The notes beneath the pieces were generated by a model. It made no database searches. It saw only the letters and a list, made by a program, of their open reading frames with translations, and had not been told where the DNA came from. The translations under genes were made by a program, and so were the position numbers. From an uncultured Treponema sp. (lineage in GTDB: Bacteria > Spirochaetota > Spirochaetia > Treponematales > Treponemataceae), in the NCBI GenBank assembly GCA_947167345.1, contig CAMVHR010000031.1, positions 1-36,403 of the forward strand: a stretch of DNA of 36,403 nucleotides. Reading direction: 5' to 3'. This document shows, one piece after another, positions 2,084 to 25,326 of this stretch; within the stretch, counting starts at the first letter, position 1; each line of letters begins with the position of its first letter.

Positions 2084-2235
2084 GAGCTTTAACATTTGAG
2101 TTTCCCTTGTCTGATGTAAAGTAAAACTAACCTATATGCAATAATAATCACTTATGATATTATAAATGTAGCCTTTCTCCATCAAGAAGGAAACTGAAGT
2201 TTTTTGACATTGACAGATACGTGCATGATGAATGA

Positions 2236-2439: not shown

Positions 2440-2453
2440 AGGAGAAGAATACT

Positions 2454-3002: not shown

Positions 3003-3033
3003 GTTTTTTAATAACAGATTTATAAGGTGTATA

Positions 3034-3120
3034 ATGAAAACTTACGACAGATTAATGAATAGTATGGGAATTACTCCAATCAAAAAATATCATAAGATTC
3101 TAAAGGGAACTTTGAAATGA
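3034..3120 (+). other. Possible tail of a lost coding region (28 codons)
   Basis: A short frame begins at ATG 3034 and ends at TGA 3118-3120, with lysine-rich protein-like content (YDRLMNSMGITPIKKYHKIL). It stays open upstream of the ATG across the end of the preceding gene, which fits a leftover C-terminal tail more than a real small gene. There is no convincing ribosome binding site. It could equally be chance in AT-rich DNA. Confidence 0.2.
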
Positions 3121-3158
3121 GTTTTTGTATTGCTCATAGATTTTAGGGAGATTTCACT

Positions 3159-4154
3159 ATGAAAAAAATATTTCTTATTACATTATTAGTTCTTTTTACT
3201 ATGAAAGTTTTTCCACAAGCCTTTTATATTAATCCAATAAAAGTTGATCCAATAAAAAAAGCGGAAGAACTTTACATGGCAAATCAATGTGAAGAGTCAT
3301 TAAATATTCTGAATCAGGTAATTTCTCAAAATCCGAATAATATGTATGCATTGTTAGACAGGAGTTGTGTACTGGATGCACTTGGAGAATATGAAAAAGC
3401 ATTACAAGATATAGAAATTGTCATAAAGAATGAACCTCATAATCTAAAGGCTCATCATATTCGAGGTGCAATATATGAAAATATGGGACTGCATGAGAAG
3501 GCTATTGATGATGAAAATTATGTTTTAGAAAAAGTTTCAACATTCAGTTCTGGACTTAACGTAAGGGGAATGGCATACGGTCGTTTGGGGTTATACGAGA
3601 AATCCTTGAAGGATTTTACAGATGCTGTGACCAATGCCCTTATTCAGAATGAATATGCAGAACCCTATTTTTTGAACAGAGCATATACTTATTATTTTAT
3701 GAAGAGATATGATGAGGCTTTATCTGATGTTGAAAATGCCATAATGCTAAATGATAAGAATCCAGAATCCTTTATTTTGAAAAGCTTGATTTTTAGATTA
3801 AAAGGAGAAATAGAGGAGTCTATAAAATTGGTCTCAGAAGCTATAAATATACGTCCTGATTATTATGAAGTCTATTATTTACGAATTATAGACTATCTGC
3901 AATCTAGACAGTATAAGAAAGCAAAAAGGGATTTGGAATATATCAAAATGCCAATGTCAGATTATTCAGCTTACCATTCATTGCTGGCTATTTACTATTA
4001 TTTGATTGGAGATGATGATAGGGCTAAAGAAGAATATAAATTGAGTTCTGCAATGAGTTCTGAAGAAAAGAACTCGTTCGTAATAAAAATAATAGCAGAT
4101 GATATTGAAGGGTATGTAAAAAATAGAAAATTTGATTTCATAGAAATAAAGTGA
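3159..4154 (+). CDS. Secreted TPR-repeat protein in the RHS locus
   Basis: The 331-residue product has a clear signal peptide (MKKIFLITLLVLFTMKVFPQA) and a ribosome binding site (tagggagatttcactATG). From about residue 35 onward it consists of tandem tetratricopeptide repeats: NPNNMYALLDRSCVLDALGE, EPHNLKAHHIRGAIYENMGL, then further units to about residue 300. TPR arrays bind other proteins. In RHS loci such exported helical-repeat proteins often act as immunity factors in the envelope or as delivery adaptors. Here it follows toxin debris and precedes another rhs cassette by 22 bases, so it may be an orphan immunity protein. The fold is secure; the role is inferred. Confidence 0.8.
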   Translation: MKKIFLITLLVLFTMKVFPQAFYINPIKVDPIKKAEELYMANQCEESLNILNQVISQNPNNMYALLDRSCVLDALGEYEKALQDIEIVIKNEPHNLKAHHIRGAIYENMGLHEKAIDDENYVLEKVSTFSSGLNVRGMAYGRLGLYEKSLKDFTDAVTNALIQNEYAEPYFLNRAYTYYFMKRYDEALSDVENAIMLNDKNPESFILKSLIFRLKGEIEESIKLVSEAINIRPDYYEVYYLRIIDYLQSRQYKKAKRDLEYIKMPMSDYSAYHSLLAIYYYLIGDDDRAKEEYKLSSAMSSEEKNSFVIKIIADDIEGYVKNRKFDFIEIK

Positions 4155-4176
4155 AAAGGAAACTGGGATTTTATAA

Positions 4177-6024: not shown

Positions 6025-6041
6025 CTTTGGAGAATTCGAAT

Positions 6042-6464
6042 ATGAAAAATAAGGTGAATAAGACTTACAGACCTGGAATAGAATCTTATGTTATACTACT
6101 TATATTATCTATTATAATTTTTACACCTTTTTTGTGTTTAAAGATTCTTGAGTTAAGAAGAGGTAAGATTTTTTTTAAGGGAAATGATTTTTATAAATGT
6201 TGTTTTCTTTGTTTTTTTTCCATTTTTTTATTATGGCTTGAGCTATGTGCTACGAAAGTTGAAATAAAAGATAATAGAATTGTCTATACAGAACATTTAC
6301 TAAAAAAAACAAGTTTTCACCTTGATTCAATAAAATTTATAGGATATGGGGTTGGAACTTTTGTAATAGTATCTAAAAATGAGAAAAAAATAGAAATAAA
6401 TTTAAATTCAATTGATAAAAACGATTTGGAACAGCTTATTGAAGATTTAAAATATCGTTCTTAG
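6042..6464 (+). CDS. Small two-TM protein with PH-like C-terminal domain, candidate immunity protein
   Basis: The frame is open from a TTG at 6027, but ATG 6042 sits 9 bases behind GGAG and is the better start, giving 140 residues. There are two membrane segments near the N-terminus (YVILLILSIIIFTPFLCL and CFLCFFSIFLLWLEL). The soluble tail (VEIKDNRIVYTEHLLKKTSF, then VIVSKNEKKIEINLNSID) resembles the beta-rich bacterial PH-like domains that follow paired TM helices. It lies immediately behind the rhs tip with the glycine-zipper region, so a membrane-resident immunity protein against a membrane-acting toxin is a reasonable guess. The family assignment is by pattern only. Confidence 0.6.
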   Translation: MKNKVNKTYRPGIESYVILLILSIIIFTPFLCLKILELRRGKIFFKGNDFYKCCFLCFFSIFLLWLELCATKVEIKDNRIVYTEHLLKKTSFHLDSIKFIGYGVGTFVIVSKNEKKIEINLNSIDKNDLEQLIEDLKYRS

Positions 6465-6479
6465 TCAGGAGAATGTAGA

Positions 6480-6815
6480 ATGAAAAAAATCTTATTGTTG
6501 ATACTATGCATGGAATGCTTGTTGTTGCCTGTGTATTCCAGAAAAAAAGAGGAAAAGGAATTTTCTTTAAGTAACAGCCATTTTTTTTTAGCTATTGATC
6601 ATGCCGATGTAAGATGGGGCAAGAGACATTTAGAAGCTGGATTCAATGCAAATTACTGTAAGGGAGAAATTGGATGGTATGTTTCAGATCCATTAAAAGT
6701 CGTGATGCGGACTTCTATGGGCTGTGATAAATATGATAAATTATCACCTAATGCAGAAGTAATAGAACTGCTCATTTCTTATGGTGCAGATTTTAACCGT
6801 TATCCGTATGTCTAG
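6480..6815 (+). CDS. Exported ankyrin-like protein, probably truncated
   Basis: The 111-residue product has a signal peptide (MKKILLLILCMECLLLPVYS) and a ribosome binding site (caggagaatgtagaATG). It ends in NAEVIELLISYGADFNRYPYV, the second helix and turn of an ankyrin repeat (VIELLISYGADxN). Ankyrin proteins normally carry several repeats; here the gene stops after the first recognisable one, 5 bases before the next rhs reading frame. That suggests insertion or recombination of the next cassette cut it short. A role as a former immunity protein is inferred from position. Confidence 0.55.
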   Translation: MKKILLLILCMECLLLPVYSRKKEEKEFSLSNSHFFLAIDHADVRWGKRHLEAGFNANYCKGEIGWYVSDPLKVVMRTSMGCDKYDKLSPNAEVIELLISYGADFNRYPYV

Positions 6816-6820
6816 CATAA

Positions 6821-8713
6821 TTGCTGAAATTTCTGATTTTGGATATTCAAGGAGATGGCTTATTGTACAGTATTAGAAGTTATAGAACAATAGACTTACT
6901 TTCAACCAGATGGCTTTCTTCTATAAATACTGCTAAGAGTCAGAATATGTATCAGAACATCTCATATTCGTTTGACCTTGTAGGCAACGTTCTTGGCTAC
7001 ACGAATGACTGTAGCTCTGGCGGTGGATACAAGACATCTCAAAACTACAGCTATGACTCTTTGTACCAATTGATAAGTGCGAGCGGAAGTACACGTTACG
7101 AGCCTGTTGTAGGCGGAGTCGTGCCAGAGCACGAGAGTACCTATACTCAAAACTACAGCTTTGATATACTGGGAAATATGACTACCAAGACAAGTGCGGA
7201 GACAGTTTTTCCCGAAAAGACAATTGGAGACGCACTCAACTACAGCATAGACTTCTCCTACGCGGAGGGCTTCGCGCACCGCCTTGACCACGCTGGGCAG
7301 CGTTACTACTCCTACGATGCGGATGGAAACGTTATCCACGAGCGGAATGGTGGAATGTCAGACGGTGGCAGCACTGGCACAGGCGACGACGAGTGGAATG
7401 ACTGGGACGACGACTGGGGAGAAGGTCTTGGAGAGTCTGGATTTGGCTTCGGCATGGGCGGAAGCAGTACAGGCTCTGGTGGAAATGTTGGCGGAAACGG
7501 CGGCCAGTCTACAGTGTATGAGCGCATATACACATGGGATGAATGTGACAGGCTTACTGGAACGACAGAGGGAACTACCGTTGTCGGGTACGTTTACGGA
7601 GAGGACGGCAAACGTACCAACAAGTACAGCAGTGCGGGCGAGACCATATATTTTAGCGACCTCTGGTCATGGCACGAGGGCGGAAGCATAGGCACTGGCG
7701 GTCAGACTACGAAAAATATCTACATTGGCACTGAGCGTATTGTAAGTAAGCTAAACCGCGGAGAAGGACTCGATACATATAGCGAGGAATATCACAAGAC
7801 ATATTACTGGCATTACGACCATCTTGGTTCTGCACATTTCATTACTGACTATCAGGGCAACGAGTACCAGAGGATAGAGTATACGCCTTACGGCGAGGAG
7901 TGGGTAGAGCTGAAATCTGACAGCGGAGACCAGTATCTGCCGTATAAGTTTACAGGAAAGGAGAGAGACGAGGAAACTGGACTTTACTATTATGGTGCTA
8001 GGTATCTGGATCCTGTTTACTCGCGGTGGCTTTCTACTGACCCTGCTGTAGATGACTACATTCCTGTAGCTGGTGCGGATAATTCCAATCTGCCTGGTAT
8101 GGGAGGGGTGTTTAATCTTGTTAATGGTAATTTATACCACTACGCGGGAAATAATCCTATAATCTATAATGATCCTAATGGCACAACAGAAGTTTATTTT
8201 TTGTATGTTTATACTCAATCAGAAGATGATCAGGATATGAAAGCTTATGAACGGCATAGTATAGATGAAGAAAAGGCTATGCTTGATAATGCTGGAGTAT
8301 CTGTTGAGGTTGTTGAAAATGCTACTAGGCAAAATGTAATAAATGCTTTTAGCGATCCTGAAGTAAGAATGATAGTTACGAGTGGACATGGATATGATGA
8401 CGCTAAAATACAAACTTATGAAGGTGGTGAGAATGGTTATTTTAGTCCTGCTGATGTTCCTATCGACAAAGAAATGTCAAAAACTCTGGAATATGTAATA
8501 TTTGAGAATTGTCATCAAGGAACAAAAGAATATAAAGAACAATGGCAAAATGCTATGAAGAAAACCAAAATAATTGGGTGGAAAAGTTTTACCTATAAAG
8601 AAGAATCTGTTGCATTTAATGATAATGGTGTGTCGGACAGAAAAGTTTTTAACTTGGAATATTATGTAAAAAGAATTATTAGTAAACATAATAAGGAAAA
8701 GAAGAGGAAATAA
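6821..8713 (+). CDS. 5'-truncated RHS cassette with second caspase-like C-terminal tip
   Basis: The 630-residue frame opens at a TTG (6821) with no ribosome binding site. It reaches further upstream into the RHS repeats than the other orphan cassettes: SFDLVGNVLGY and NYSYDSLYQLISASGSTRYE are present. It carries the acidic/Trp insert (residues 189-200) and Gly-rich linker, then the core with PYKFTGKERDEETG and NNPIIYNDPNG (to base 8182). The AT-rich tip has VTSGHGYDD (His codon 8387-8389) and IFENCHQG (Cys codon 8510-8512), again a caspase-like His/Cys layout but with different surrounding sequence from the tip at 807-1283. Its TAA overlaps the ATG of the next gene by one base. The His/Cys dyad is seen; peptidase activity is inferred. 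Confidence 0.88.
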   Translation: MLKFLILDIQGDGLLYSIRSYRTIDLLSTRWLSSINTAKSQNMYQNISYSFDLVGNVLGYTNDCSSGGGYKTSQNYSYDSLYQLISASGSTRYEPVVGGVVPEHESTYTQNYSFDILGNMTTKTSAETVFPEKTIGDALNYSIDFSYAEGFAHRLDHAGQRYYSYDADGNVIHERNGGMSDGGSTGTGDDEWNDWDDDWGEGLGESGFGFGMGGSSTGSGGNVGGNGGQSTVYERIYTWDECDRLTGTTEGTTVVGYVYGEDGKRTNKYSSAGETIYFSDLWSWHEGGSIGTGGQTTKNIYIGTERIVSKLNRGEGLDTYSEEYHKTYYWHYDHLGSAHFITDYQGNEYQRIEYTPYGEEWVELKSDSGDQYLPYKFTGKERDEETGLYYYGARYLDPVYSRWLSTDPAVDDYIPVAGADNSNLPGMGGVFNLVNGNLYHYAGNNPIIYNDPNGTTEVYFLYVYTQSEDDQDMKAYERHSIDEEKAMLDNAGVSVEVVENATRQNVINAFSDPEVRMIVTSGHGYDDAKIQTYEGGENGYFSPADVPIDKEMSKTLEYVIFENCHQGTKEYKEQWQNAMKKTKIIGWKSFTYKEESVAFNDNGVSDRKVFNLEYYVKRIISKHNKEKKRK

Positions 8714-9105
8714 TGAAAAGAAGGTTTTTGATACTATTTTTCTTATGTTGTTCATGTGCATTTTGTAATTCTGAAATGAAATTATATTGGATACCTGAAT
8801 CAGATAAAAAAATACTAATATATACAGGAGATAATATCCCTTCAATCTCAGAAAAAATCAAAAAGGCAAAGTCAGCAAATAAAGTTGAAAAATGTGTAGT
8901 ATTTGATGGAGTTTATATATTAGAATATGAAGAAAAAAGTTTTATAATTCGAAATCAATATTGGATTTTTGAAACAAAAAATAAAAAATATTTAAAAACT
9001 AATCTTTTAGAAAACTGTAGAGAATGTTTAATAAAATACTTCATTAAGGAAAAATTTGGAGAAAATTTATCTGGTAATTCAGAGTTTGTAAGCAAAGAGG
9101 AATAG
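8713..9105 (+). CDS. Exported small protein, candidate immunity protein of the preceding tip
   Basis: The 130-residue product starts at an ATG sharing one base with the rhs stop (TAATG), so it is probably translationally coupled. The N-terminus is a signal peptide (KRRFLILFFLCCSCAFC), and one of its cysteines could be a relaxed spirochaetal lipobox. The mature part is Lys/Glu/Asn-rich with no recognised family. An exported partner implies that the matching toxin acts in the envelope, or that the immunity protein is stored there. Function is inferred from position. Confidence 0.65.
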   Translation: MKRRFLILFFLCCSCAFCNSEMKLYWIPESDKKILIYTGDNIPSISEKIKKAKSANKVEKCVVFDGVYILEYEEKSFIIRNQYWIFETKNKKYLKTNLLENCRECLIKYFIKEKFGENLSGNSEFVSKEE

Positions 9106-9110
9106 GAGAA

Positions 9111-10424
9111 ATGTCTGAGAGCTGTGATACAGGAAGCGGAACTGGAAACTGTGGTGCTGGTCAGGCTTCAGTCTATGAACGTATATACACATGGGATGAA
9201 CGTGACAGGCTCGCTGGAACAACGGAAGGTGAGAAAGTTGTCGGCTACGTATACGGCGAGGACGGTAACCGCACCAACAAGTACAGCAGTGCAGGAGAAA
9301 CGATTTATTTCAACGACCTATGGTCATGGTACGAGGGTGGCAGCATCGGCATTGGCGGCCAGACTACGAAAAATATATACCTTGGAAGTGAAAGAATAGT
9401 CAGCAAACTCAACCGTGGGGAAGGGCTCGACACCTACAGCGAGGAATACCACAAGACGTACTACTGGCATTCTGATCATCTTGGTAGTGCACATTTCATT
9501 ACTGACTATCAGGGCAACGAGTACCAGAGAATTGAGTACACGCCTTACGGCGAGGAGTGGGTTGAACTTAAGGCCGACAGCGGAGAACAGTACTTGCCAT
9601 ATAAATTTACAGGAAAGGAACGTGACGAAGAGACTGGTCTGTATTATTATGGGGCTAGGTATCTGGATCCTGTGTACTCGCGATGGCTTTCTACCGACCC
9701 TGCGGTCGGGGACTATCTGCCATTAGCACCTACAAGTGATGACGCACGTAAGCATAATAAGAATCTGCCTGGTATGGGAGGTGTATTTAGTACTGTTAAT
9801 ATGCAGTTGTACCACTATGCAAATAATAATCCTTTGAGATATATTGATCCGAATGGAAGCGATGCAATAAATTTTACAAAAGACTATATATTACTTCGAT
9901 TGGAAATAGCTTTAGTGATACCGCTTTATGACAAAAATGGTAATAGACAAATTGATCGTAATGGTCAAAAAAAATCTGTTGAAATTGATACACTTGTTGT
10001 GAAGCCTAACGAGTATGCTTGTGGAGCATTCGATGGTGGAAAAAATAAAAAAGGAGATTATTTTAAAGTTACTGCAAGAGATGGAATAATTGTCAGTTTT
10101 ATTGTGGCTGAAGATTCTATATATTTTTTTGACGGAGGACTTTTAAACTTTTTAGGAGATGCTGGAAAATTCTTTTCTAATATCAGAAAGAAAAGAACTG
10201 ATAAGGATTATAAAGAATATTCAGGCTTTAAAAAGGCAGGTAGTAAGGGAGCTGCTTTCCTGAAAGCTGAATGGGATGAAACATTCGATGAAGATTTGAA
10301 AGATGAAAATGGTAACATTATGACAATGGAAGAAGCGTACAATACAGATAAGCAGGCATCACTTAGATATTATTTAAATCAAATCGGACGTTTATCAACT
10401 GACATAACAACGAGTATAGAATGA
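9111..10424 (+). CDS. Short RHS cassette (core plus unknown C-terminal tip)
   Basis: The 437-residue frame has a proper start: ATG 9111 preceded by ataggagaa. It begins exactly in the variable linker (MSESCDTGSGTGN), lacks the acidic Trp stretch, and runs into VYERIYTWDERDRL and the full core (PYKFTGKERDEETG, NNPLRYIDPNG to base 9857). This is the minimal orphan unit in the window. The tip starts SDAINFTKDYILL and includes KPNEYACGAFDGGKNKKGDYFK and a Lys-rich middle (FFSNIRKKRTDKDYKEY). I recognise no toxin family in it. Its stop overlaps the next ATG (ATGA), so the gene behind it is the likely immunity gene. Confidence 0.85.
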   Translation: MSESCDTGSGTGNCGAGQASVYERIYTWDERDRLAGTTEGEKVVGYVYGEDGNRTNKYSSAGETIYFNDLWSWYEGGSIGIGGQTTKNIYLGSERIVSKLNRGEGLDTYSEEYHKTYYWHSDHLGSAHFITDYQGNEYQRIEYTPYGEEWVELKADSGEQYLPYKFTGKERDEETGLYYYGARYLDPVYSRWLSTDPAVGDYLPLAPTSDDARKHNKNLPGMGGVFSTVNMQLYHYANNNPLRYIDPNGSDAINFTKDYILLRLEIALVIPLYDKNGNRQIDRNGQKKSVEIDTLVVKPNEYACGAFDGGKNKKGDYFKVTARDGIIVSFIVAEDSIYFFDGGLLNFLGDAGKFFSNIRKKRTDKDYKEYSGFKKAGSKGAAFLKAEWDETFDEDLKDENGNIMTMEEAYNTDKQASLRYYLNQIGRLSTDITTSIE

Positions 10425-11083
10425 GACGTTTATTTTCATTTTTTAAATTTATTGCTATAATTTTTTTTATTATTATTCTTTTCGAACTTCCTTTTATCAA
10501 AGATGATATACGGTATAAAAAAGAATTATCCCAAATTTGTACTGAGATTAAGAAAGTTCCTCATGTAGAAAAAATATATTACAAATCACTGAAGGATTTT
10601 GCTCCCATCTTTGATTTCTATATAGAGATGGATGATGGTGTTAAAATAATATTTAGGAAAGTACATTATGAAGGAAATTCTATAATTTTTGAGAAACTCC
10701 CAAGAATAGGAGATTTTGCTTTTTGGACATGTCGCTATGATTCAGTAAAAAAAGGTTCGTCATTTTATATTTTTGATATTTATGATGAATTTGAGACTGG
10801 ACTTCCAGAAGTCGGAAAATCTCTCTTTCATAGAAAAAATGTCATAGTAATATTAGAGAATTATAGGAAAATTCTGGATAAAGTAAGCTCATTTCACATC
10901 GCAAGTAAAGAATTTTTGGATTATCTAAAACAAGGAAAGGAGGCTGATGCATTTAGTATTTTTGATTTGGAGGTGGCCAAAGGTTCTTGGGGAATAGGGT
11001 GCTATGAAATTAAATGTACGTATGAATACTGTGATGAATATAAGAATAGTTTCTTTGGACGTCAGGCAGCATGGTATGAATGA
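10421..11083 (+). CDS. Membrane-anchored candidate immunity protein
   Basis: The 220-residue product begins at an ATG overlapping the rhs stop by 4 bases. Residues 5-25 form one strong hydrophobic helix (FSFFKFIAIIFFIIILFELPF), a signal anchor. The rest is soluble, mixed alpha/beta, rich in aromatic and charged residues (FDFYIEMDDGVKIIFRKVHY), with no recognised family. Position and coupling make it the probable immunity gene for the tip at 9858-10421. The very next sequence is a broken rhs core copy. Confidence 0.65.
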   Translation: MRRLFSFFKFIAIIFFIIILFELPFIKDDIRYKKELSQICTEIKKVPHVEKIYYKSLKDFAPIFDFYIEMDDGVKIIFRKVHYEGNSIIFEKLPRIGDFAFWTCRYDSVKKGSSFYIFDIYDEFETGLPEVGKSLFHRKNVIVILENYRKILDKVSSFHIASKEFLDYLKQGKEADAFSIFDLEVAKGSWGIGCYEIKCTYEYCDEYKNSFFGRQAAWYE

Positions 11084-11098
11084 TTAGTTATTTTCAAG

Positions 11099-11211
11099 AA
11101 AGCACAAGCTACGAACCAGTGGCAGGAGGCGTAGTCCCTGAGCATGAAAGCACCTATACTCAAAACTACAGCTTTGATATACTTGGAAATATGACCACTA
11201 AGACAAGTGTG
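11099..11211 (+). pseudogene. RHS core remnant
   Basis: This stretch encodes STSYEPVAGGVVPEHESTY and then NYSFDILGNMTTKTS, matching the internal part of the other rhs copies. Homology starts at the same codons where the cassette at 4177 starts to match, and stops abruptly after aagacaagtgtg at about 11211, where an unrelated frame takes over. It is a fifth, inactive copy marking the right end of the array. Confidence 0.8.
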
Positions 11212-11498
11212 CAGCTGATGTCCGTACTGACAGAAGGTTTGCAGATATACAGGTGCCGCTAAATGTTGCGGAAGGAGGTACGAGTATGTGTGAGGTTTTG
11301 GACAAGATAGAAAACAGAGGTATTGCAACAGGATTAGCCAGAGGAAGAGAAGAAGGCTTAGTCACTGGAGTTTCATCTACTCAGGCACTCATTAACCGTT
11401 TGTTTGAAGAAAACCGACTGGAAGACTTGCGCAGGGCATCTACAGACAAGGAGTATCTTCTGCAGCTGCTTAAAGAGGAAGGACTATTGAAGGAATAG
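11212..11498 (+). pseudogene. 3' end of an Rpn-type (PD-(D/E)XK nuclease/transposase-like) gene, 5' part lost
   Basis: From base 11214 the frame reads ADVRTDRRFADIQVPLNVAE and continues in frame to 11498. Sequence of this kind, ending in a Gly-Arg-Glu helical region (GIATGLARGREEG) and a short tail, is typical of the C-terminus of the Rpn/PDDEXK family of putative transposases. The catalytic N-terminal domain is missing and is replaced by the rhs remnant, joined at about 11211. Family assignment rests on the tail only. Confidence 0.5.
11286..11498 (+). CDS. Small protein from the C-terminal part of an Rpn-type gene, with its own start
   Basis: Within the Rpn-type remnant an ATG at 11286 is preceded by a near-perfect ribosome binding site (AAGGAGG at 11272-11278, 7-base spacer). 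It would give 70 residues (MCEVLDKIENRGIATG to LLKEEGLLKE), helical and charged. Full-length Rpn genes in enterobacteria are known to make a C-terminal short product from an internal start that inhibits the long toxic form. If this family behaves alike, the surviving piece may be a still-translatable antitoxin-like product. Translation is inferred from the site, not shown. Confidence 0.5.
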   Translation: MCEVLDKIENRGIATGLARGREEGLVTGVSSTQALINRLFEENRLEDLRRASTDKEYLLQLLKEEGLLKE

Positions 11499-11555
11499 TT
11501 CTGCTTCTTTCAAAACAGATATTACTATTTCTTGTCAGTCGTTAAATATTAAAAA

Positions 11556-12185
11556 TCAAATAAAATCGTACAGTTTGTACCAGCCTCCGGTAAGGTACTT
11601 CATTATATGAGGAAGGATTTTTTCTGCCTTTTCTTCAGAGTCAACATGAGTAAGAAGGTAAGCAAAAGCTTCTATCTGAACATGCGAAATCCAGTGTATG
11701 ACGCGCTCATCTACATTGGGCATGTTCTTTTTTTTGCATATAATTTCTGAAAGCCTTGCGTAATGCTTTTCCGTAATGCGTACAAGTTCGTCCAGACAGT
11801 TTGAAAATTTTGAACCTTGTGATTTTACAATCAAAAGATTCATTTCGTCATAATGGGCGTAAAGAAATTTTATGGCATTGACGCTTGAAGTAAAGTCGTC
11901 AGAAGTCTCAATATCTTCTGCTACAGCATAATCTTCATTTTCCTCAATTTGCTCAGCTTCCAAGTTATAATGCTCTTCCATCATGCTAAGGATATTTTGG
12001 AATGGTTCTTTAACCAGAGATTCAAATAAATCTTCCTTGTCCTTAAAGAAAAAGTAAAGAGCACCTGTGGTTACTCCAGCGTTTTTACAGATAGAGCGTA
12101 AGGATGCCGCCGCATATCCTTTTTCCATAAATTCAGCCTTTGCACTTTTTAGGAGCTTTTCCTTTGTTTCTTTTTCGCCTTCCAT
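11556..12185 (-). CDS. TetR/AcrR-family transcriptional regulator
   Basis: The 209-residue product has a TetR DNA-binding domain at residues 10-57 (LLKSAKAEFMEKGYAAASLR, then VTTGALYFFFKDKEDLFESL), followed by an all-helical ligand-binding region that is variable, as usual in the family. The regulated genes are unknown. It is divergent from the HAD phosphatase gene with 57 bases between, so that gene or itself are the nearest candidate targets. A 13-base palindrome (ATAACA-A-TGTTAT, 12184-12196) overlaps its start codon. Confidence 0.9.
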   Translation of the reverse strand: MEGEKETKEKLLKSAKAEFMEKGYAAASLRSICKNAGVTTGALYFFFKDKEDLFESLVKEPFQNILSMMEEHYNLEAEQIEENEDYAVAEDIETSDDFTSSVNAIKFLYAHYDEMNLLIVKSQGSKFSNCLDELVRITEKHYARLSEIICKKKNMPNVDERVIHWISHVQIEAFAYLLTHVDSEEKAEKILPHIMKYLTGGWYKLYDFI

Positions 12186-12242: not shown

Positions 12243-13037
12243 ATGGTAAAACTTATTCTTTCTGATTTAGACGGAACACTTCTCCGTGACGACAAGACTA
12301 TTTCCAAAGCGAGCGAAGAGGCATTCTCACAGGCTCGTAAGAATGGTGTTTTGGTCGGTTTCTGTACTTCACGCGCAAGGCTGAACGTAAAGGAATATCT
12401 CAAACAGGTACAGACAGATTTTCTCATTTCGAATGGCGGTGCATGTGTTTTTGTTGGAGATTCCATAATTTACAACAATTCTTTTACTGTAGAAGAAAGT
12501 CGTAAGATGTTTTCTGCGATATATGACATTTGCGGCAAAAACATTGAAATGACAGCCGACATGCCTGATGCACTGTATTGGAACAGAACGAAAGAAGAAC
12601 AGCAGTATGTATACTCTCGAGATTCCATTTATGATGATTTTTCGGACTTTAAGATGCCGGTCATGAAGATTTGTGTTCATACTTGGGATCAGGATATTGC
12701 TGAGCGTATAGCACAAATCCTTGGTGATGATGCTGTTGATGTAAGTAAGTTCTCAGATATTCCATGGTACAAGTTTTCAAAAAAGAATGCTACAAAGGAA
12801 AGGGCTGTGCAGGAACTTTCTTCTTATTTGGATGTTTCTTTGTCTGATATGGCGGCTTTTGGAGATGACTTTAATGATATTGGAATGTTAAAGATGTGTG
12901 GATGCGGAATCGCAATGCAGAATGCCATTGATGAAGTAAAACTTTGTGCAGACGAAATAACTCTTTCAAATGAAGAAGATGGCGTTGCTCACTGGATTTA
13001 CAAAAACGTATTGCACTACAATTCATTGCGGCAGTAA
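12243..13037 (+). CDS. Cof-type HAD-superfamily phosphatase (IIB)
   Basis: The 264-residue protein has the HAD motifs in order: DLDGTLL at residues 8-14 (nucleophile Asp8, acid Asp10), a CTSR segment in the motif II region (41-44), a conserved Lys near residue 185, and GDDFNDIGML at 207-216 for Mg2+ binding. Between them lies the alpha/beta cap of the Cof/YidA group. These enzymes dephosphorylate sugar phosphates, phospholipid head-group intermediates or cofactors; the substrate cannot be told from sequence. The start is firm because the nucleophile motif must lie near the N-terminus, yet no ribosome binding site stands at the proper distance. The 3' end overlaps the convergent HMA gene by 22 bases. 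Confidence 0.92.
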   Translation: MVKLILSDLDGTLLRDDKTISKASEEAFSQARKNGVLVGFCTSRARLNVKEYLKQVQTDFLISNGGACVFVGDSIIYNNSFTVEESRKMFSAIYDICGKNIEMTADMPDALYWNRTKEEQQYVYSRDSIYDDFSDFKMPVMKICVHTWDQDIAERIAQILGDDAVDVSKFSDIPWYKFSKKNATKERAVQELSSYLDVSLSDMAAFGDDFNDIGMLKMCGCGIAMQNAIDEVKLCADEITLSNEEDGVAHWIYKNVLHYNSLRQ

Positions 13038-13393
13038 TTTTGTATCGAATACCCTGCCTGCTGTATAAGGTCTTTTACTGCTTCATCAGCAATTTCTGCT
13101 TTTAGCAGGATATGGGCTTTTTTTGCCTTTGGATTTATTTTTTCTGCCCATATTCCGTCATGTGCATTCAAGGCATTGCTTATTTTCAATGCACAGTTAG
13201 AACACATGATGTCTGGTATTACCATGTCTGCACTGTATTTGTAGTTTGCCCTGTTTTTGTCTGACGGTTGAATTTTGACTGTTCTGCTTCCTCCTCCACA
13301 GCAACTGCTTTCTCCTTTCAAGTGTTTTATGTAGCTTTTTATGCTAATGACAATAAATACTGCAAAAATAAAGATAATAATTGCATTAATCAT
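13016..13393 (-). CDS. Membrane-anchored heavy-metal-associated protein with FeoB-associated-type N-terminus
   Basis: The 125-residue product starts at an ATG behind aaggaggctaaa. Residues 3-18 form one membrane helix, followed by a short basic stretch and a CCGGG motif (31-35), as in FeoB-associated Cys-rich membrane proteins. Residues 55-120 look like a heavy-metal-associated (HMA) domain with MCSNC at 63-67 in place of the usual MxCxxC, and an HMA-like C-terminal half (EIADEAVKDLIQQAGYSI). It is the last gene of the feo operon. A role in handling iron or another soft metal at the membrane next to FeoB is inferred. It overlaps the convergent HAD gene by 22 bases. Confidence 0.7.
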   Translation of the reverse strand: MINAIIIFIFAVFIVISIKSYIKHLKGESSCCGGGSRTVKIQPSDKNRANYKYSADMVIPDIMCSNCALKISNALNAHDGIWAEKINPKAKKAHILLKAEIADEAVKDLIQQAGYSIQNYCRNEL

Positions 13394-13403
13394 TTTAGCC
13401 TCC

Positions 13404-13628
13404 TTATTTATTATGGTTCAGATTTTTCTTTGCCTGCTCTATCATTTTGTCAACTTCTTTTTCTGCAGTGCAAGAGTGGTTTGTACAGGTTCCGTTTTTA
13501 TGTGCTGAACAGGAATAACATCCAAGAGATGTTCCTTCCATTCCTGCTTTTTTATAGTTATGAATGACTTTGTATATTATGTAAAAAGAATATACTGTAA
13601 TAAGACAAATCAACAAGTAATTAATCAT
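13404..13628 (-). CDS. FeoB-associated Cys-rich membrane protein
   Basis: The frame is open from 13673, but the ATG at 13628 has a good ribosome binding site (agggagtttt) and gives the expected size, 74 residues. It has one N-terminal membrane helix (INYLLICLITVYSFYIIY) and a Cys-rich tail (GCYSCSAHKNGTCTNHSC; Cys 37, 40, 48, 53). This layout matches the small FeoB-associated family encoded behind feoB in many anaerobes, thought to assist Fe2+ uptake. It lies between feoB and the HMA-type protein in one operon. Confidence 0.8.
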   Translation of the reverse strand: MINYLLICLITVYSFYIIYKVIHNYKKAGMEGTSLGCYSCSAHKNGTCTNHSCTAEKEVDKMIEQAKKNLNHNK

Positions 13629-13730: not shown

Positions 13731-15938
13731 TTAAGCTCTTTTTCTTGCGTCTTCTTTTGCGTAAGGATTCGGACGGAAAAGCATGAACAGTATGAATGCA
13801 AATGCTATCAGTGCTATAATGAAACCTATGATTCCAGCTCCAGTATCTGCCATTCCCCTGTGAACAAAGAACATTCCAAACTGATAGAATATAAATGTCA
13901 CCACCCATGCAAATACATTCTGGAAAACAATTGCAAACCAGAACCATTTTCTGCTCTTAAGTTCGTTTGCCATTGTTGCAATAGCTGCAAGACAAGGTGA
14001 GTCAAGCAAGTTGAACAGAAGGAATGAGAATGCAGCAAGAGCTGTTGGGAACCATGATGCAATTCCTGATACAACTGTTGCAATGGCTTCTTCTTCTTCA
14101 AGTGCTGCTTCGGCAATTTCAGGGTCAACGTTTGCAAGAACACCCATTGTAGATACAATGGCTTCCTTTGCAGAGAATCCAGAAAGTGAAGATGCCGCTG
14201 CCTGCCAACCGCCGTCAGCACCGCCAAATCCGAGAGGAATGAATATCCAGCGGATTGCGTTACCGATTGAAGCAAGAATAGATTCGTTTGGATCTACAAG
14301 ACCGAATCCTTCTTCTCCAAAACCGTAGCTTGAAAGGAACCACATGACAATACATGCAAGGAAAAGGATTGTACCAGCTTTCTTGATGAAGCTCCACAGG
14401 CGTTCCCATGTGTGCAAAAGTACTGTCTTAAGTGAAGGTATGTGGTACTGTGGCAATTCCATTACGAATGGTGCTGCAGGACCGTGAAAATACTTTGTCT
14501 TTTTAAGACCGATTGCTGCAACAAGAACTGCTACAATTCCAATCAGGTACATCAAAGAACCAAGCCATGCTACAGCACCGTTGCCTTCTCCAAGAACGTG
14601 CTGACCGATTACTACTGCAAACAGACCTATTACAGGAAGCTTTGCTCCGCAAGGAATCCATGTTGTCGTCATGATTGTCATGCGGCGGTCATTTTCGTTT
14701 TCGATTGTACGGCTTGCCATGATTCCTGGAATGCCGCATCCAGATGAAATAAGCAGTGGAATGAATGACTTTCCGCTTAAACCAAAGTGGCGGAACAGAC
14801 GATCCATGACGAATGCAATGCGAACCATGTAACCTACATCTTCAAGAATTGAAAGGAGCAGGAACAAAATTGCCATCTGAGGTAAGAATCCGAATACTGC
14901 TCCAAGACCACCGACAACTCCGTTTACAATACAGTCTGTAAGTATTTCATTTGCACCAGCGTTACCAAGAGCCTCTTCCAGCCAGCCCTGAAGTCCACCT
15001 ACAACCGTATCATTTGCCCAGTCAGTTCCCATTGTACCTATTGTACTTACTGCTACCCAGTATACGAACCACATGACAACAAGGAAGATTGGAAGACCAA
15101 GCCATCGGCTTGTTACAATGTTGTCGATTTTGTCAGACATTGTTTCTTTTCTGCCGCTTTTTACAAGAACACCCTTGAGCAGGGCTGTAATGTATTCATA
15201 GCGCTCATTTGTAATGATTGAGCTGATGTCGTCATCCATGTCCTTTTCAAGCTTAGCAGTGATTGCTTCGGCTACACTTGTATCTGTAAGTCCTATTTTC
15301 TCAATGACTTTTTCATCACGTTCAAGAACCTTTATGGCTGTCCAGCGTTTTATTTTTGAGTCTACAGATGAAGGTAGCAAAGCTTCTACTTTTGAAATTG
15401 CTTCTTCAACGTTATTTGCAAAACAAGCTTTTGGTACTGGTGCTGAAGAGTTTGCTGCTTTAACAGCTTCGTCTGCAGCTTCTTTTACGCCCTTGTTGTG
15501 CAATGCTACAGTTTCTATTACCTTGCAGCCGAGCTTTTCTTCAAGTTTTTTTGTATCAATCTTGTCACCGGCCTTTTTGAGTGCATCAACCATGTTGAGG
15601 GCAACGACAACTGGTTTTCCGAGTTCAAGAATCTGTGTTGTCAGGTACAGGTTACGTTCGATGTTAGTAGCATCTACGATGTTTATGACAGCCTGAGGCT
15701 CATTACTTGCAAGATAGTCGCGTGAAACAACTTCTTCATTTGTATATGGGGAAAGTGAATAAATTCCAGGAAGGTCTGTTACAATTGTTTCTTCCGACCC
15801 CTTTACCTTTCCTTCTTTTTTTTCAACTGTTACTCCAGGCCAGTTTCCTACATACTGTACTGTGCCAGTAAGATTGTTGAACATTGTTGTCTTGCCACAG
15901 TTTGGGTTTCCGGCAAGTGCTATTTTTGTTGCAGCCAT
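13731..15938 (-). CDS. feoB: Ferrous iron transporter FeoB
   Basis: The 735-residue protein imports Fe2+ across the inner membrane. The N-terminal G domain has the P-loop GNPNCGKTT (residues 10-18), a switch region with GNWPGVTVEKKEG, DLPGIYSLSP and the NMVD guanine-specificity motif. The middle helical region precedes a C-terminal membrane domain with two Gate motifs, including ISSGCGIPGIMASR and the matching segment SPCLAAIATM. Length and order are normal for FeoB. The start is 11 bases behind feoA, with a gagtgagg ribosome binding site. Two FeoA-type genes stand upstream and two small Cys-rich genes downstream, so this is a complete anaerobic Fe2+ uptake operon. Confidence 0.97.
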   Translation of the reverse strand: MAATKIALAGNPNCGKTTMFNNLTGTVQYVGNWPGVTVEKKEGKVKGSEETIVTDLPGIYSLSPYTNEEVVSRDYLASNEPQAVINIVDATNIERNLYLTTQILELGKPVVVALNMVDALKKAGDKIDTKKLEEKLGCKVIETVALHNKGVKEAADEAVKAANSSAPVPKACFANNVEEAISKVEALLPSSVDSKIKRWTAIKVLERDEKVIEKIGLTDTSVAEAITAKLEKDMDDDISSIITNERYEYITALLKGVLVKSGRKETMSDKIDNIVTSRWLGLPIFLVVMWFVYWVAVSTIGTMGTDWANDTVVGGLQGWLEEALGNAGANEILTDCIVNGVVGGLGAVFGFLPQMAILFLLLSILEDVGYMVRIAFVMDRLFRHFGLSGKSFIPLLISSGCGIPGIMASRTIENENDRRMTIMTTTWIPCGAKLPVIGLFAVVIGQHVLGEGNGAVAWLGSLMYLIGIVAVLVAAIGLKKTKYFHGPAAPFVMELPQYHIPSLKTVLLHTWERLWSFIKKAGTILFLACIVMWFLSSYGFGEEGFGLVDPNESILASIGNAIRWIFIPLGFGGADGGWQAAASSLSGFSAKEAIVSTMGVLANVDPEIAEAALEEEEAIATVVSGIASWFPTALAAFSFLLFNLLDSPCLAAIATMANELKSRKWFWFAIVFQNVFAWVVTFIFYQFGMFFVHRGMADTGAGIIGFIIALIAFAFILFMLFRPNPYAKEDARKRA

Positions 15939-15949
15939 TCTATATTACC

Positions 15950-16171
15950 TCACTCAACTTCAATGCATTCTGCATCATCTTTGCGGACAGAAAGTTCATA
16001 TCCTCTGATTGTTACTTCAACAGGATCTCCAAGTGGGGCAACCTTGCGGATGTAAACTTTGCATCCTTTGGTAAATCCCATATCCATAAGGCGGCGTTTT
16101 AGCGCACCTTCACCGTTCAGGCTCTTTACTTTTACTTCAGAACCTACTTTTGCTTCTCGCAATGTACCCAT
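15950..16171 (-). CDS. feoA: FeoA-family protein
   Basis: The 73-residue product is an SH3-like FeoA domain: MGTLREAKVGSEVKVKSLNG, then LKRRLMDMGFTKGCKVYIRK and GDPVEVTIRGYELSVRKDDA. FeoA is a small cytosolic partner required for FeoB activity. It has a TAGGAG ribosome binding site upstream and is followed by feoB after 11 bases. Confidence 0.93.
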   Translation of the reverse strand: MGTLREAKVGSEVKVKSLNGEGALKRRLMDMGFTKGCKVYIRKVAPLGDPVEVTIRGYELSVRKDDAECIEVE

Positions 16172-16282: not shown

Positions 16283-16492
16283 TTAGATTAAAACTTTTGA
16301 AGCCATGCCTTTGTCTAAAGCGATTCGGGCTTCTTTTACTTTTACTATAAGACCTGTTTTGACTTTCTGAATCACTGTAACAGTGCTTCCTGATGTAAAG
16401 CCTAAATCAACCAGATGCTGCTTTACGTCTGGTTCACCTCCAATGCTTTTAATAGTTACTTCATCTCCGATAGATGCAAAAAGTAATGGCAT
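16283..16492 (-). CDS. Second FeoA-family protein, first gene of the feo operon
   Basis: The 69-residue product is also FeoA-like (MPLLFASIGDEVTIKSIGGE, then VKQHLVDLGFTSGSTVTVIQ, VKVKEARIALDKGMA). It starts at an ATG behind caggagttttat. Tandem FeoA proteins ahead of FeoB are seen in several anaerobes and may act as separate regulatory partners. The 111-base gap to the next feoA holds no gene I can support. The feo promoter lies upstream. Confidence 0.9.
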   Translation of the reverse strand: MPLLFASIGDEVTIKSIGGEPDVKQHLVDLGFTSGSTVTVIQKVKTGLIVKVKEARIALDKGMASKVLI

Positions 16493-16575: not shown

Positions 16576-16602
16576 CATAAATCAATTATTTAAATAAGTC
16601 AA
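16574..16602 (-). promoter_or_regulatory. Promoter of the feo operon
   Basis: On the - strand TTGACT (16602-16597), a 17-base spacer and TATGCT (16579-16574) form a good sigma-70 promoter upstream of the first feoA gene. Confidence 0.65.
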
Positions 16603-16615
16603 TAGCCTAGGCTAA
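16602..16615. promoter_or_regulatory. Palindrome abutting the feo -35 box
   Basis: TAGCCTAGGCTA (16603-16614) is a perfect 12-base palindrome directly upstream of the -35 box. Read on the - strand with one more base at each side, it is TTAGCCTAGGCTAT, close to TTAG-N6-CTAA. It resembles half-sites of DtxR-family iron boxes. Confidence 0.45.
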
Positions 16616-16647
16616 CAGTTATTATGTTGGCATTCCTAAAATAAAAA

Positions 16648-16673
16648 AGGTCTGATTTTAGTAAATCAGACCT
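16648..16673 (-). terminator. Terminator behind the P-type ATPase cluster
   Basis: An 11-bp perfect stem (AGGTCTGATTT / AAATCAGACCT) with a 4-base loop is followed on the - strand by TTTTTAT. It lies 25 bases beyond the end of the 16699-17010 gene and separates the cluster from the feo promoter. Confidence 0.85.
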
Positions 16674-16698
16674 AAAAGCTCATTTTCACAACAGCTTG

Positions 16699-17010
16699 TT
16701 ACCACTGTCCTACGGCTTGTCCTATTTTTTCAATTTCACTTAGGATTTCATTTTTCTTGTTTGGCGTGTAAAAAGTTGCCTTGGACTGAAGTTTTCTTGC
16801 CATTGGTATGAGTGATTGAAGTTTTTCTAACGGAAGAGTTTCCTTTTGAAATTCAATAAGGACACTTCCAGTCTTTTCGTTGTATTCCATATTTTTTATG
16901 GTACATATTTTCTGCACTACATTAGTCGCTGCCTTACGGATGTCATCATCCTTAAGAATTTTGTCCCTAATTCTTATTCTTTCCGTTTCTTCATAATAGT
17001 TAATCTGCAT
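16699..17010 (-). CDS. Small HMA-like protein of the P1B-ATPase (ferrosome-like) cluster
   Basis: The 103-residue product overlaps the ATPase stop by one base, so the two are coupled. Its N-terminus (YYEETERIRIRDKI) repeats the Arg-rich GRIRIR theme found at the start of the ATPase. The middle (NMEYNEKTGSVLIEFQ) matches the beta-alpha-beta plan of the HMA-type domain in the ATPase N-terminus (VTVNFTTGSFLIYYD). No CxxC metal site is present. In ferrosome gene clusters small Arg-rich partners accompany the P1B-6 ATPase; assignment here is by pattern and context. Confidence 0.6.
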   Translation of the reverse strand: MQINYYEETERIRIRDKILKDDDIRKAATNVVQKICTIKNMEYNEKTGSVLIEFQKETLPLEKLQSLIPMARKLQSKATFYTPNKKNEILSEIEKIGQAVGQW

Positions 17011-19109
17011 TAGTATTTCTCCTGTAACAGGGATTGTGTCGCCTGAACGCTGAAAAGTATTGTTGATGAGTTGTGAAGGATTGCCGCCAGAGAAGGATTG
17101 ATTAATCCGAATAATCCTAGCCCAATGAGTGCAGAATTGACAGCAATTATGCCTCTGTTGTTGCGGTCAATTTTATTCATAAGCCTCTTGCCCATAATCC
17201 TCATCTTATATAGTCCGTCAAGTCCGTCATCAGATGATAGCATTATGTCAGATGTTTCTCCTGTAATTGCTGCACAATCACCCATTGCAATGCCTGTGTC
17301 TGCTGCTGCAAGTGCTGGAGCATCATTTATGCCGTCTCCAATCATTATGACTTTATGACCTTTCTTCTTTTGTTCATTGATGTATTTTACTTTGTCTTCC
17401 GGCAGGGCATGAGAAATATAATGGTCTACCTTCGTTATTTCTGCAGCCGTTTTTGCGGCTCCCTCATCGTCTCCTGTAATCATGGTACAGTTTACTATGC
17501 CGCTTTTATGCAGTTTTCTTATGATTTCTGCCGCATTATCTCGGACTGGGTCTGATATTGCAAATATTCCAAGCAACTGACTTTCTTCTGCTAGGTACAG
17601 GAGGGATTCTCCTTTATTTATAGCTTCTTCCTGAATATGCTTCAGTCTGTCAGGCTCGGTAATATGTTCGTCTTCAAAAATAAAGTGGCGGCTTCCTATT
17701 AATAATCGTTTGCCGTCTAGAGATGTTGCAATTCCATGCGCAACAATATATTCAACTTTTGCATGTTCTTCCGGGTGCTGGAGTCCCTTGTCTTTTGCAG
17801 CGTGTACTATGGCTGTCGCAACAGGGTGTGCAAAATGTTCCTCCAGACAGGCGGCAATGCGCAAAAGTTCTTCTTCGCTTTTATCGCAGAACGGAATGAC
17901 TCTTGAAAGCTTTGGCTTTGCTGCTGTAAGTGTTCCAGTTTTGTCTAGAACTACAGTATCTGCAAGTGATACATCTTCAAGATATTTTCCCCCTTTGACT
18001 AAAATTCCGTGCTGTGCACTTTCCTTCATTGCACTCAAAACTGCAATAGGGGCTGCAAGTTTCATTGCACATGAGTAGTCTACCATGAGTGTTGCCATTA
18101 CTTTTGTAATGTTTCTTGTAAACATAAAAGTAAGCAGTGAAAGTATAAAGTTATATTTTACAAGTTTGTCCGCAAGGTGTTCAGAACGCACTTGTGAAGA
18201 AACCTTCAACTGCTGAGAATTTTCTATCATGCTCAGTATGTTCTGGACTTTTGTCTGTGAGCCGACAGCCCTTACTATAATGAAAAGTTCTCCTTCCTGA
18301 ACAACAGTACCTGCAAATACACTCTGTCCTTTTCTTTTTTCAACAGCAAGAGGCTCTCCAGTAATGGAAGCCTGATTTACCAGTGCCTCTCCGTCAACAA
18401 TGTCTCCGTCAGCAGGAATTAATGCTCCAGTCCTTACGGCAACAATGTTTCCTGGTTTTACCATGTATAAAGGAACTGATTTTTCTGTATTGCCTTCTAC
18501 AACCTGTACCATGTCCTTGTCGGAAAGCATGGTTATTGCAAGGTCTGTATATGATTTTTTCTTTGTATATTCTTCAATCGTCTCGCCGATGTCTAGCAGA
18601 AAATTAATGTTTGATGCAGTATTTGCATCTCCTGTCAGAATAGACATTGTTATTGCTGTTGCATCAAGCACATCGGCTTTGAATACTTGTCCTTTTCGGA
18701 TGCAGTTCAATCCTTTTAGAATGCGTGGGGTAAGGTTAAATACCCGTAAGACTGTACGTATTGGAATCGGAAGGAAATGCTTTAAATAATGCCTTATCGT
18801 CATTTCGGCAAGAATCTGAATAAGGCTCGGCTGATTCTGGGGAACTTCGACAGAATTGAGCATTTCTTCATCTTTCAGATATTTATCTGAAAGTGCCATA
18901 AAGAAGGCCTTAATCTGTTTTTCTGAAAGAATCTCTGTGTCATAATAAATCAGGAAAGAACCTGTTGTAAAGTTTACAGTTACCTTTGTCATTCCTTCCT
19001 GTACGGAAAGCAGACTCTGCGCGAGAGTTGCCTGACGAGGTGTAGTTGTTCCTTTATCGTATCGTATCCTGATACGTCCCGGCAGGGAATGCTTTACGTA
19101 ATAATCCAT
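17010..19109 (-). CDS. P1B-type metal-transporting ATPase, FezB/P1B-6-like
   Basis: The 699-residue protein carries the P-type ATPase motifs: SITGEP (248-253) in the actuator domain, DKTGTLT (389-395) with the phosphorylated Asp, and GDGINDAPAL in the hinge. The N-terminus has an Arg-rich GRIRIRYDKG (11-20) and an HMA-like fold without CxxC. The intramembrane metal motif is SCAMK (346-350), not the CPC or CPH of Cu or Zn pumps. Arg-rich N-termini and a non-CPx motif are features I associate with P1B-6 pumps, including FezB of ferrosomes, which loads iron into intracellular granules. A small Gly-rich membrane protein upstream, an Arg-rich partner downstream and the nearby feo operon support an iron role. 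The exact metal cannot be proven from sequence. Confidence 0.85.
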   Translation of the reverse strand: MDYYVKHSLPGRIRIRYDKGTTTPRQATLAQSLLSVQEGMTKVTVNFTTGSFLIYYDTEILSEKQIKAFFMALSDKYLKDEEMLNSVEVPQNQPSLIQILAEMTIRHYLKHFLPIPIRTVLRVFNLTPRILKGLNCIRKGQVFKADVLDATAITMSILTGDANTASNINFLLDIGETIEEYTKKKSYTDLAITMLSDKDMVQVVEGNTEKSVPLYMVKPGNIVAVRTGALIPADGDIVDGEALVNQASITGEPLAVEKRKGQSVFAGTVVQEGELFIIVRAVGSQTKVQNILSMIENSQQLKVSSQVRSEHLADKLVKYNFILSLLTFMFTRNITKVMATLMVDYSCAMKLAAPIAVLSAMKESAQHGILVKGGKYLEDVSLADTVVLDKTGTLTAAKPKLSRVIPFCDKSEEELLRIAACLEEHFAHPVATAIVHAAKDKGLQHPEEHAKVEYIVAHGIATSLDGKRLLIGSRHFIFEDEHITEPDRLKHIQEEAINKGESLLYLAEESQLLGIFAISDPVRDNAAEIIRKLHKSGIVNCTMITGDDEGAAKTAAEITKVDHYISHALPEDKVKYINEQKKKGHKVIMIGDGINDAPALAAADTGIAMGDCAAITGETSDIMLSSDDGLDGLYKMRIMGKRLMNKIDRNNRGIIAVNSALIGLGLFGLINPSLAAILHNSSTILFSVQATQSLLQEKY

Positions 19110-19126
19110 GTGATTTGCCTTAAAGA

Positions 19127-19339
19127 TTAAGCCTTGGCTTTTTTCTGTTTTGATTCTGCAGAAACATCTTCCGCATCTTCTTTTACAGATTCAATAAATT
19201 CTGAAGCATCATCCTTAAGCTGCAATCCTGCAGCAACCACCTTTGCACATCCCTTGCGGAATGTCTGTGTCTGAAGGAAGGCGACTAAAGCACCTCCGAT
19301 AAGACCACCAATCAATAACTGTTTGCAATCAAATGTCAT
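19127..19339 (-). CDS. Small Gly-zipper membrane protein of the ATPase cluster (DUF6110/FezA-like)
   Basis: A TTG at 19345 is possible, but ATG 19339 has AAGGAG at a 7-base spacing and gives 70 residues. One membrane segment with a glycine pattern (LLIGGLIGGALVAFLQT) is followed by an amphipathic acidic helix (LKDDASEFIESVKEDAEDVS) and a Lys-rich tail. Small proteins of this design stand upstream of P1B-6 ATPases in ferrosome-like clusters. It is the first gene of the operon; the ATPase follows after 17 bases. Similarity to DUF6110 is from memory and unverified. Confidence 0.6.
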   Translation of the reverse strand: MTFDCKQLLIGGLIGGALVAFLQTQTFRKGCAKVVAAGLQLKDDASEFIESVKEDAEDVSAESKQKKAKA

Positions 19340-19372
19340 AATCAAGCTCCTTCTATTGATTTTCTAGCGTTT

Positions 19373-19401
19373 ATAATAATGTATGATTTTAAAAAATACA
19401 A
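19373..19401 (-). promoter_or_regulatory. Promoter of the P1B-ATPase cluster
   Basis: On the - strand TTGTAT (19401-19396), a 17-base spacer and TATTAT (19378-19373) stand 34 bases upstream of the first start codon. The surrounding sequence is very AT-rich, so alternatives a few bases away are possible. Confidence 0.5.
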
Positions 19402-19485
19402 TACAAAATTATTTGCCATGAACCAAGATTGTTTTTTGCAAAATTAAAATGTAGTATGCTAATTTAATTTGTGCTAAAATAAAAA

Positions 19486-19516
19486 CCGGTCTTTAAGTCA
19501 AACTACCAAAGACCGG
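19486..19516 (-). terminator. Terminator of the rpsD-orf-eno operon
   Basis: A 9-bp perfect stem (CCGGTCTTT / AAAGACCGG) with a 13-base loop is followed on the - strand by TTTTTATTTT. It stands 48 bases behind the eno stop. Confidence 0.85.
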
Positions 19517-19563
19517 CTAACTCTATTTACTACCAGGCTCGAGGTTACCTGTCAGTACCAAAA

Positions 19564-21926: not shown

Positions 21927-21942
21927 GTTAGATATGTCTAAC
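21927..21942. promoter_or_regulatory. Inverted repeat at the rpsD transcription start
   Basis: GTTAGATATGTCTAAC is a perfect 6-bp inverted repeat with a 4-base centre. Its TTAG-N6-CTAA core (21928-21941) begins 9 positions from the end of the -10 box on the - strand, the same spacing as at pyrKD. It could be an operator or a hairpin at the mRNA 5' end. Confidence 0.5.
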
Positions 21943-25310: not shown

Positions 25311-25326
25311 GTTAGATTGAGCTAAC
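25311..25326. promoter_or_regulatory. Inverted repeat at the pyrKD transcription start
   Basis: GTTAGATTGAGCTAAC is an inverted repeat (one mismatch) with TTAG-N6-CTAA at 25312-25325. It lies at the same distance from the -10 box as the repeat at rpsD. Operator or 5'-terminal hairpin. Confidence 0.5.

Follow-up and report, generated by a model that had tools for sequence, protein, structure and literature searches.

A probable ferrosome-type fezAB operon with a conserved third gene next to feoAAB in an uncultured Treponema

Ferrosomes, granules that store iron inside a membrane, have been demonstrated in a handful of bacteria, and iron storage in spirochaetes is, to our knowledge, poorly understood. 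In C. difficile, ferrosomes depend on FezA and FezB, whose genes are under Fur repression (PMC12574912). P1B-6 ATPases, the class to which FezB belongs, are listed with Fe(II) as substrate (PMC7558416), and the HN motif of TM6 is a feature of these enzymes (PMC9374683). DUF6110 proteins have been described as PacL-like, their genes usually accompanying those of P1B6 ATPases, and PacL proteins use a GxxG motif in the TM helix to scaffold patches of ATPase (PMC9374683, PMC13043812); with CtpC, PacL forms membrane efflux patches (PMC9374683).

The window analysed here, i.e., the whole stretch of 36,403 nucleotides of contig CAMVHR010000031.1 from an uncultured Treponema sp. (assembly GCA_947167345.1), carries a cluster that shares with C. 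difficile fezAB (CD630_05910-05920) a DUF6110 FezA followed by a P1B-6 FezB in the same order, 44% identity between the FezB proteins, and the SCA, HN and RxR motifs. In contrast, the C. difficile pair has no third gene, its FezA tail is longer (131 aa), no feo link is found within about 8 kb of it, and its Fur repression (PMC12574912) differs from the treponeme, where the single FUR-family protein found is Zur-like. Six-gene fez clusters of the R. palustris RPA2333-2338 type, here represented by Azospirillum and Vibrio loci assigned to that type by gene count and domains, also place a P1B-6 ATPase after a small YtxH/Gly-rich membrane protein and include stand-alone HMA_2 proteins; however, they comprise six genes against three, and their ATPase belongs to a sister clade (100/100), the window ATPase falling outside this proteobacterial clade. 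The D. magneticus fezABC operon likewise contains a FezB P1B-6 ATPase, but its FezC is a DUF4405-like cytochrome (PMC10979944), whereas the third gene of the window cluster encodes an HMA_2 protein and no DUF4405 gene is present in the cluster. Finally, the mycobacterial PacL1-CtpC system resembles the window in having a small GxxG-TM scaffold whose gene precedes that of a P1B ATPase with the TM6 HN motif, DUF6110 and DUF1490 being related; nevertheless, CtpC carries CPC in TM4, moves Zn and occupies a separate tree branch, and the DUF1490 scaffold of that platform bears a C-terminal metal-binding motif, whereas the window proteins show no His motif and SCA in TM4. The novelty of the locus is a spirochaete cluster with a conserved extra gene, the ferrosome kind itself being already known.

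The three-gene cluster and its feo neighbours

The initial annotation had described, in the 16648-19401 region, a small membrane protein, a P1B ATPase and an HMA-like protein next to ferrous iron uptake genes. All three are present there, intact, on the minus strand, encoding a 70-aa Gly-zipper membrane protein, a 699-aa P1B ATPase and a 103-aa HMA_2 protein, and the neighbouring feoA-feoA-feoB genes were confirmed by Pfam. The order on this strand is enolase, hairpin terminator, 70-aa protein, ATPase, 103-aa protein, terminator, feoA, feoA, feoB, Cys-rich protein and CxxC HMA protein. The features, by coordinate, are:

19485..19517, minus: hairpin that terminates the enolase gene upstream and sets the fez operon apart (folding z = -3.9)
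19127..19339, minus: FezA-like protein, 70 aa, DUF6110/PacL-like; one TM helix with a Gly-zipper (GGLIGG), then a charged amphipathic stretch
17010..19109, minus: FezB-like P1B-6 ATPase, 699 aa (motifs, tree, 44% identity to the C. difficile P1B-6 ATPase)
19062..19082, minus: PGRIRIR in the N-terminal HMA_2 domain, which lacks CxxC; G11, R12 and R14 conserved without exception in 15 FezB proteins from spirochaetes and clostridia
18060..18074, minus: SCAMK, TM4 metal-site motif of P1B-6; DYSCA/DFSCA also found in C. difficile and the six-gene clusters
17070..17078, minus: LHN, TM6 motif of P1B-6 and P1B-6-like ATPases (described in PMC9374683)
16699..17010, minus: stand-alone HMA_2 protein, 103 aa, spirochaete-specific third gene (Pfam HMA_2 35.0 bits, cut-off 30)
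16648..16673, minus: intrinsic terminator closing the fez operon (stem of 11 bp plus T run, folding z = -6.1)
16601..16616, no strand assigned: degenerate GTTAG-N6-CTAAC site, 8/10, overlapping the -35 of the feo promoter
16283..16492, minus: feoA, first copy (Pfam FeoA 1.1e-16)
15950..16171, minus: feoA, second copy (Pfam FeoA 2.1e-22)
13731..15938, minus: feoB, ferrous iron importer (Pfam and NCBIfam feoB 2.9e-160)
13404..13622, minus: FeoB-associated Cys-rich membrane protein, weak match (PF12669 4.9e-4, below cut-off)
13016..13393, minus: last gene of the feo operon, encoding a CxxC-bearing HMA protein anchored in the membrane (PF00403 1.5e-7)

Both hairpins fold far better than shuffled sequence (z of -3.9 and -6.1), and the three genes thus constitute one isolated transcription unit, in which the third gene and the fezB stop have a single base in common. 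The cluster had also been credited with its own promoter and terminator; the terminator stands, with its 11-bp stem and T run, while the interval ahead of the first gene in which a promoter is expected (19340-19485) showed no recognisable sigma-70-like site, and a promoter of its own is predicted because a terminator lies between the cluster and enolase. No Rfam match to a riboswitch was obtained within the window. The same three-gene order was found in about 25 other spirochaete loci, a repetition that excludes chance.

Kinship of the ATPase and the small membrane protein

The ATPase displays the Pfam domains HMA_2, E1-E2 ATPase and hydrolase and a full set of P-type catalytic motifs; the motifs located were PGRIRIR (residues 10-16), SCAMK (346-350), DKTGT (389-393), GDGINDAP (591-598) and LHN (678-680). 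The Arg-rich N-terminus and the SCAMK in place of CPx noted initially were both observed, with RIRIR instead of CxxC in an N-terminal HMA_2 domain devoid of cysteine. SCA is the TM4 motif of P1B-6, and the window ATPase combines it with the HN of TM6; NCBIfam returned only generic heavy-metal names. As FezB reference, two C. difficile genomes (HC132 and CD160) were used, which were located by a published 16S primer, the orthologue being chosen by uniqueness and not by locus tag. Each contains one full-length relative of the window ATPase, 44% identical over residues 2-697, the next matches being ordinary pumps at 32% or less, and its upstream neighbour is a protein of 131-132 aa, of which the one scanned matched DUF6110 (E 1.5e-23). 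Given this uniqueness in both genomes, we infer that the ATPase and its upstream protein are the fezAB pair.

In maximum-likelihood trees, the window ATPase was placed in a spirochaete clade (100/100), itself within a larger clade that comprises clostridial FezB, including that of C. difficile, and two outliers (100/99). The next branch outward corresponded to the six-gene Azospirillum/Vibrio ATPases (100/100), followed by Fusobacterium/Priestia-type ATPases with DYSCG or a related TM4 motif and then by the CtpC-like pump of a Rhodococcus; CopA and ZntA-like pumps fell outside all of these, and pumps of both these kinds are encoded elsewhere in the window's genome. Cu, Zn/Cd and CtpC-like pumps were thus covered, and the tree held no Co (P1B-4) pump and no named FezB of R. 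palustris, S. putrefaciens or D. magneticus. The proposed affinity with P1B-6 members including FezB was borne out, as the ATPase groups inside the P1B-6 clade with C. difficile FezB; of the Cu, Zn and Co pumps from which the initial annotation had set it apart, it is separated from the first two in a tree without a Co pump. An identity as a Cu, Zn/Cd or CtpC-like pump was ruled out by motifs and tree. The P1B ATPases of Fusobacterium, Priestia plasmids and one spirochaete (L033/L099, L037, L038) form a sister group whose TM4 motif reads DYSCG or DFICG and whose genes are surrounded by two or three HMA_2 genes.

The small membrane protein has, as described, a single hydrophobic segment with a Gly-zipper (GGLIGG), and its homology to the C. 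difficile DUF6110 protein identifies it as FezA-like. By itself, it matched YtxH and DUF6110 below cut-off (DUF6110 24.5 bits against 26, i.e., 1.5 bits under), and it is as a member of its family profile that it is assigned to DUF6110, a domain matched by 28 of the 34 FezA family members from spirochaetes and clostridia. Moreover, alignment of the spirochaete FezA profile with the clostridial profile including C. difficile (hhalign) gave a probability of 98.7, E 1.8e-16 over 71 columns. Judged by their sequences, fezA and fezB are clear relatives of the C. difficile ferrosome pair. DUF1490, the PacL family, was matched by 9 of the 34 members (best 8.5e-7), and in an alignment with the Rhodococcus DUF1490 protein the TM glycine and A..D..A positions are in common, while the His-rich tail of the latter is absent from FezA. 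Together with PacL scaffolding through the GxxG TM motif, this relation supports a predicted role of FezA as a self-associating scaffold and suggests how it may work; the ferrosome connection is not made in the DUF6110 papers PMC9374683 and PMC13043812.

Iron uptake and storage, and competing explanations

Of 35 genomes, 6 had a feoB gene no more than 8 kb from fezB, whereas the numbers of feoB copies and the genome sizes predict 0.35 (P about 1e-6 on the assumption of independence, which does not hold for these genomes); with the shared ancestry of G218 and G197 allowed for, the count is nearer 4-5 and P lies between 4e-4 and 3e-5. The linked loci are those of the window, G218, G197, G410, G414 and G426 (in G290 the distance is about 10 kb), and they belong to both Spirochaetota and Clostridia. 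Since gene orders differ, with fez before feo in the window and feo before fez in G218, the link appears to recur, and this recurrence supports iron as the predicted substrate of FezB. A homologue of the CxxC HMA protein that ends the window feo operon is encoded directly upstream of fezA in L073.

Our preferred reading, to which we assign a probability of about 0.74, is a fezAB operon of the ferrosome type whose third gene is specific to spirochaetes and which would constitute, with FeoAAB, an uptake-then-store module. Iron would enter via the adjacent FeoAAB importer, hence the coupling of uptake to storage. By analogy with the respective families, the Gly-zipper TM helix of FezA would self-associate and gather FezB into membrane patches that give rise to small vesicles, and FezB would use ATP to load the lumen of these vesicles with cytosolic Fe(II), to be stored there as mineral. 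As fezAB are relatives of the C. difficile pair and the feo genes lie alongside, imported iron is probably packed into ferrosome-like granules in this spirochaete. The original proposal of a fez cluster building an iron organelle holds for fezA and fezB, by homology and tree, the organelle being predicted through that homology, but it does not extend to the third gene, which lies outside the C. difficile pair.

This third gene, first reported as a small Arg-rich HMA-like protein of the cluster, does encode an HMA_2 protein with R13 and R15, both invariant across 25 relatives, but it is neither part of the C. difficile fez pair nor FezC, the latter identity being ruled out by its HMA_2 domain and by the lack of a DUF4405 match. 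HMA_2 was found in 24 of the 25 family members, and the domain corresponds to the N-terminal domain of FezB (hhalign E 1e-9), with RIRIR in both and no CxxC. The gene adjoins fezB in the spirochaete loci examined (about 24-25), the exceptions being the Brachyspiraceae-like L095 and two divergent loci, L099 and L100; no such neighbour of fezB was observed in the clostridial loci examined, which points to a lineage-specific spirochaete addition. Because it shares the FezB N-terminal domain and RIRIR motif without a metal-binding CxxC, the free protein probably attaches to FezB or FezA in a regulatory or scaffolding role and not in that of a thiol chaperone, and it offers a new conserved subunit for study. 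Within the ferrosome reading, the third gene could even be essential and replace functions of the remaining genes of the six-gene clusters, so that assembly would differ from that of C. difficile; its retention beside fezB in about 24 spirochaete loci and the HMA_2 proteins that lead the Azospirillum and Vibrio six-gene clusters agree with this variant, which we nonetheless consider doubtful, given that FezA and FezB are reported as the required pair for C. difficile ferrosomes (PMC12574912).

The main competitor of granule storage is an iron detoxification platform, in which FezB would be held in plasma-membrane clusters in the PacL/CtpC style and would expel Fe(II), with no organelle involved. 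This is consistent with the DUF1490 matches and shared positions of FezA, with a CtpC-like ATPase that branches off next, beyond P1B-6 and the DYSCG sister group, and with the efflux patches made by PacL-CtpC (PMC9374683); it is nevertheless unlikely, because the ATPase groups with C. difficile FezB, required for ferrosomes, and not with CtpC, linkage to feo uptake would be odd for a pure efflux pump, and FezA is devoid of the His-rich tail. A pump with a scaffold subunit that would export Zn, Mn, Cd or Cu instead of iron, suggested by the Zn-moving CtpC family just outside the clade and by the generic NCBIfam names, is highly improbable in view of SCA rather than CPC in TM4, the position of the genome's own CopA and ZntA-like pumps outside the clade, and the feo linkage.

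Returning to the ferrosome reading, we tentatively propose that ferrosomes and mycobacterial metal effluxosomes might be two outcomes of one ancient module, consisting of a Gly-zipper scaffold (FezA/DUF6110 or PacL/DUF1490) and a P1B-6-like ATPase with an RxR HMA_2 domain; the spirochaete version would have gained a free HMA_2 subunit and, in some species, been wired to FeoB import, serving as the iron store of ferritin-less treponemes.

Regulation and distribution

For classical Fur or DtxR boxes, the best matches upstream of fez were no better than elsewhere in the window. One DtxR-family repressor is encoded in the genome, and the only FUR-family protein above cut-off (G000:C8, L101) adjoins a ZnuA-like binding protein and is thus probably Zur; with no good operator upstream of fezA either, Fur control as in C. 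difficile was not seen. Of 24 spirochaete loci, 7 have a TTAG-N6-CTAA dyad upstream of fezA; the sites number 12, compared with 0.17 in shuffled sequence, and the enrichment is almost confined to spacing 6. In the clostridial L117 the same dyad precedes both the dtxR-fezAB operon and feoA. Exact 16-bp GTTAG-N6-CTAAC sites are present in the window at 21927-21942 and 25311-25326, preceding a dihydroorotate dehydrogenase (DHOD) fusion gene and a ribosomal protein S4-like gene; upstream of the window fezA none was convincing (best 7/10). The dyad looks like a putative regulon operator common to spirochaetes and clostridia. The full form or its 14-bp core was observed in the window, L073, L074, L076, L078, L085, L087, L088, L095 and L117, ahead of fezA, feoA, dtxR, enolase, a xylose-isomerase-like gene, an ABC exporter and the DHOD fusion gene, and in L095 also ahead of flavodoxin-like and ExbB/D-like genes.

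Among 296 Spirochaetota genomes, FezB relatives, counted at an identity of at least 45%, were mostly found in the genus of the window (18 of 29 genomes, one broken) and in its family, including other genera, other P1B matches reaching at most 38%. If the ferrosome reading is true, the lipid-bounded iron organelle would extend to spirochaetes, with fez mostly intact across these carriers. The broken copy, in L097 (G157, 7446-11769), is interrupted by a stop and an inserted transposase-bearing element, which indicates loss of the cluster in some members. An Arcobacter plasmid (L035, 2809-6878) harbors a fez-like cluster including a DUF2202 protein; plasmids can thus carry such clusters. Neither ferritin, Dps nor encapsulin was found in the window's genome (assembly 95.6% complete), the sole ferritin-domain match being rubrerythrin. 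Within the genus, 7 of the 18 genomes with fez and 4 of the 11 without it have ferritin/Dps, counts that do not support fez as a ferritin replacement across the genus; the coexistence of fez with ferritin/Dps in 7 relatives indicates that it is not simply a substitute. Elsewhere in the window, positions 90-10424 contain repeated large ORFs with YERIYEWDERDRLTGTTEG-type motifs (RHS/YD-repeat-like) and interleaved small membrane proteins, which looks like a polymorphic repeat-protein array.
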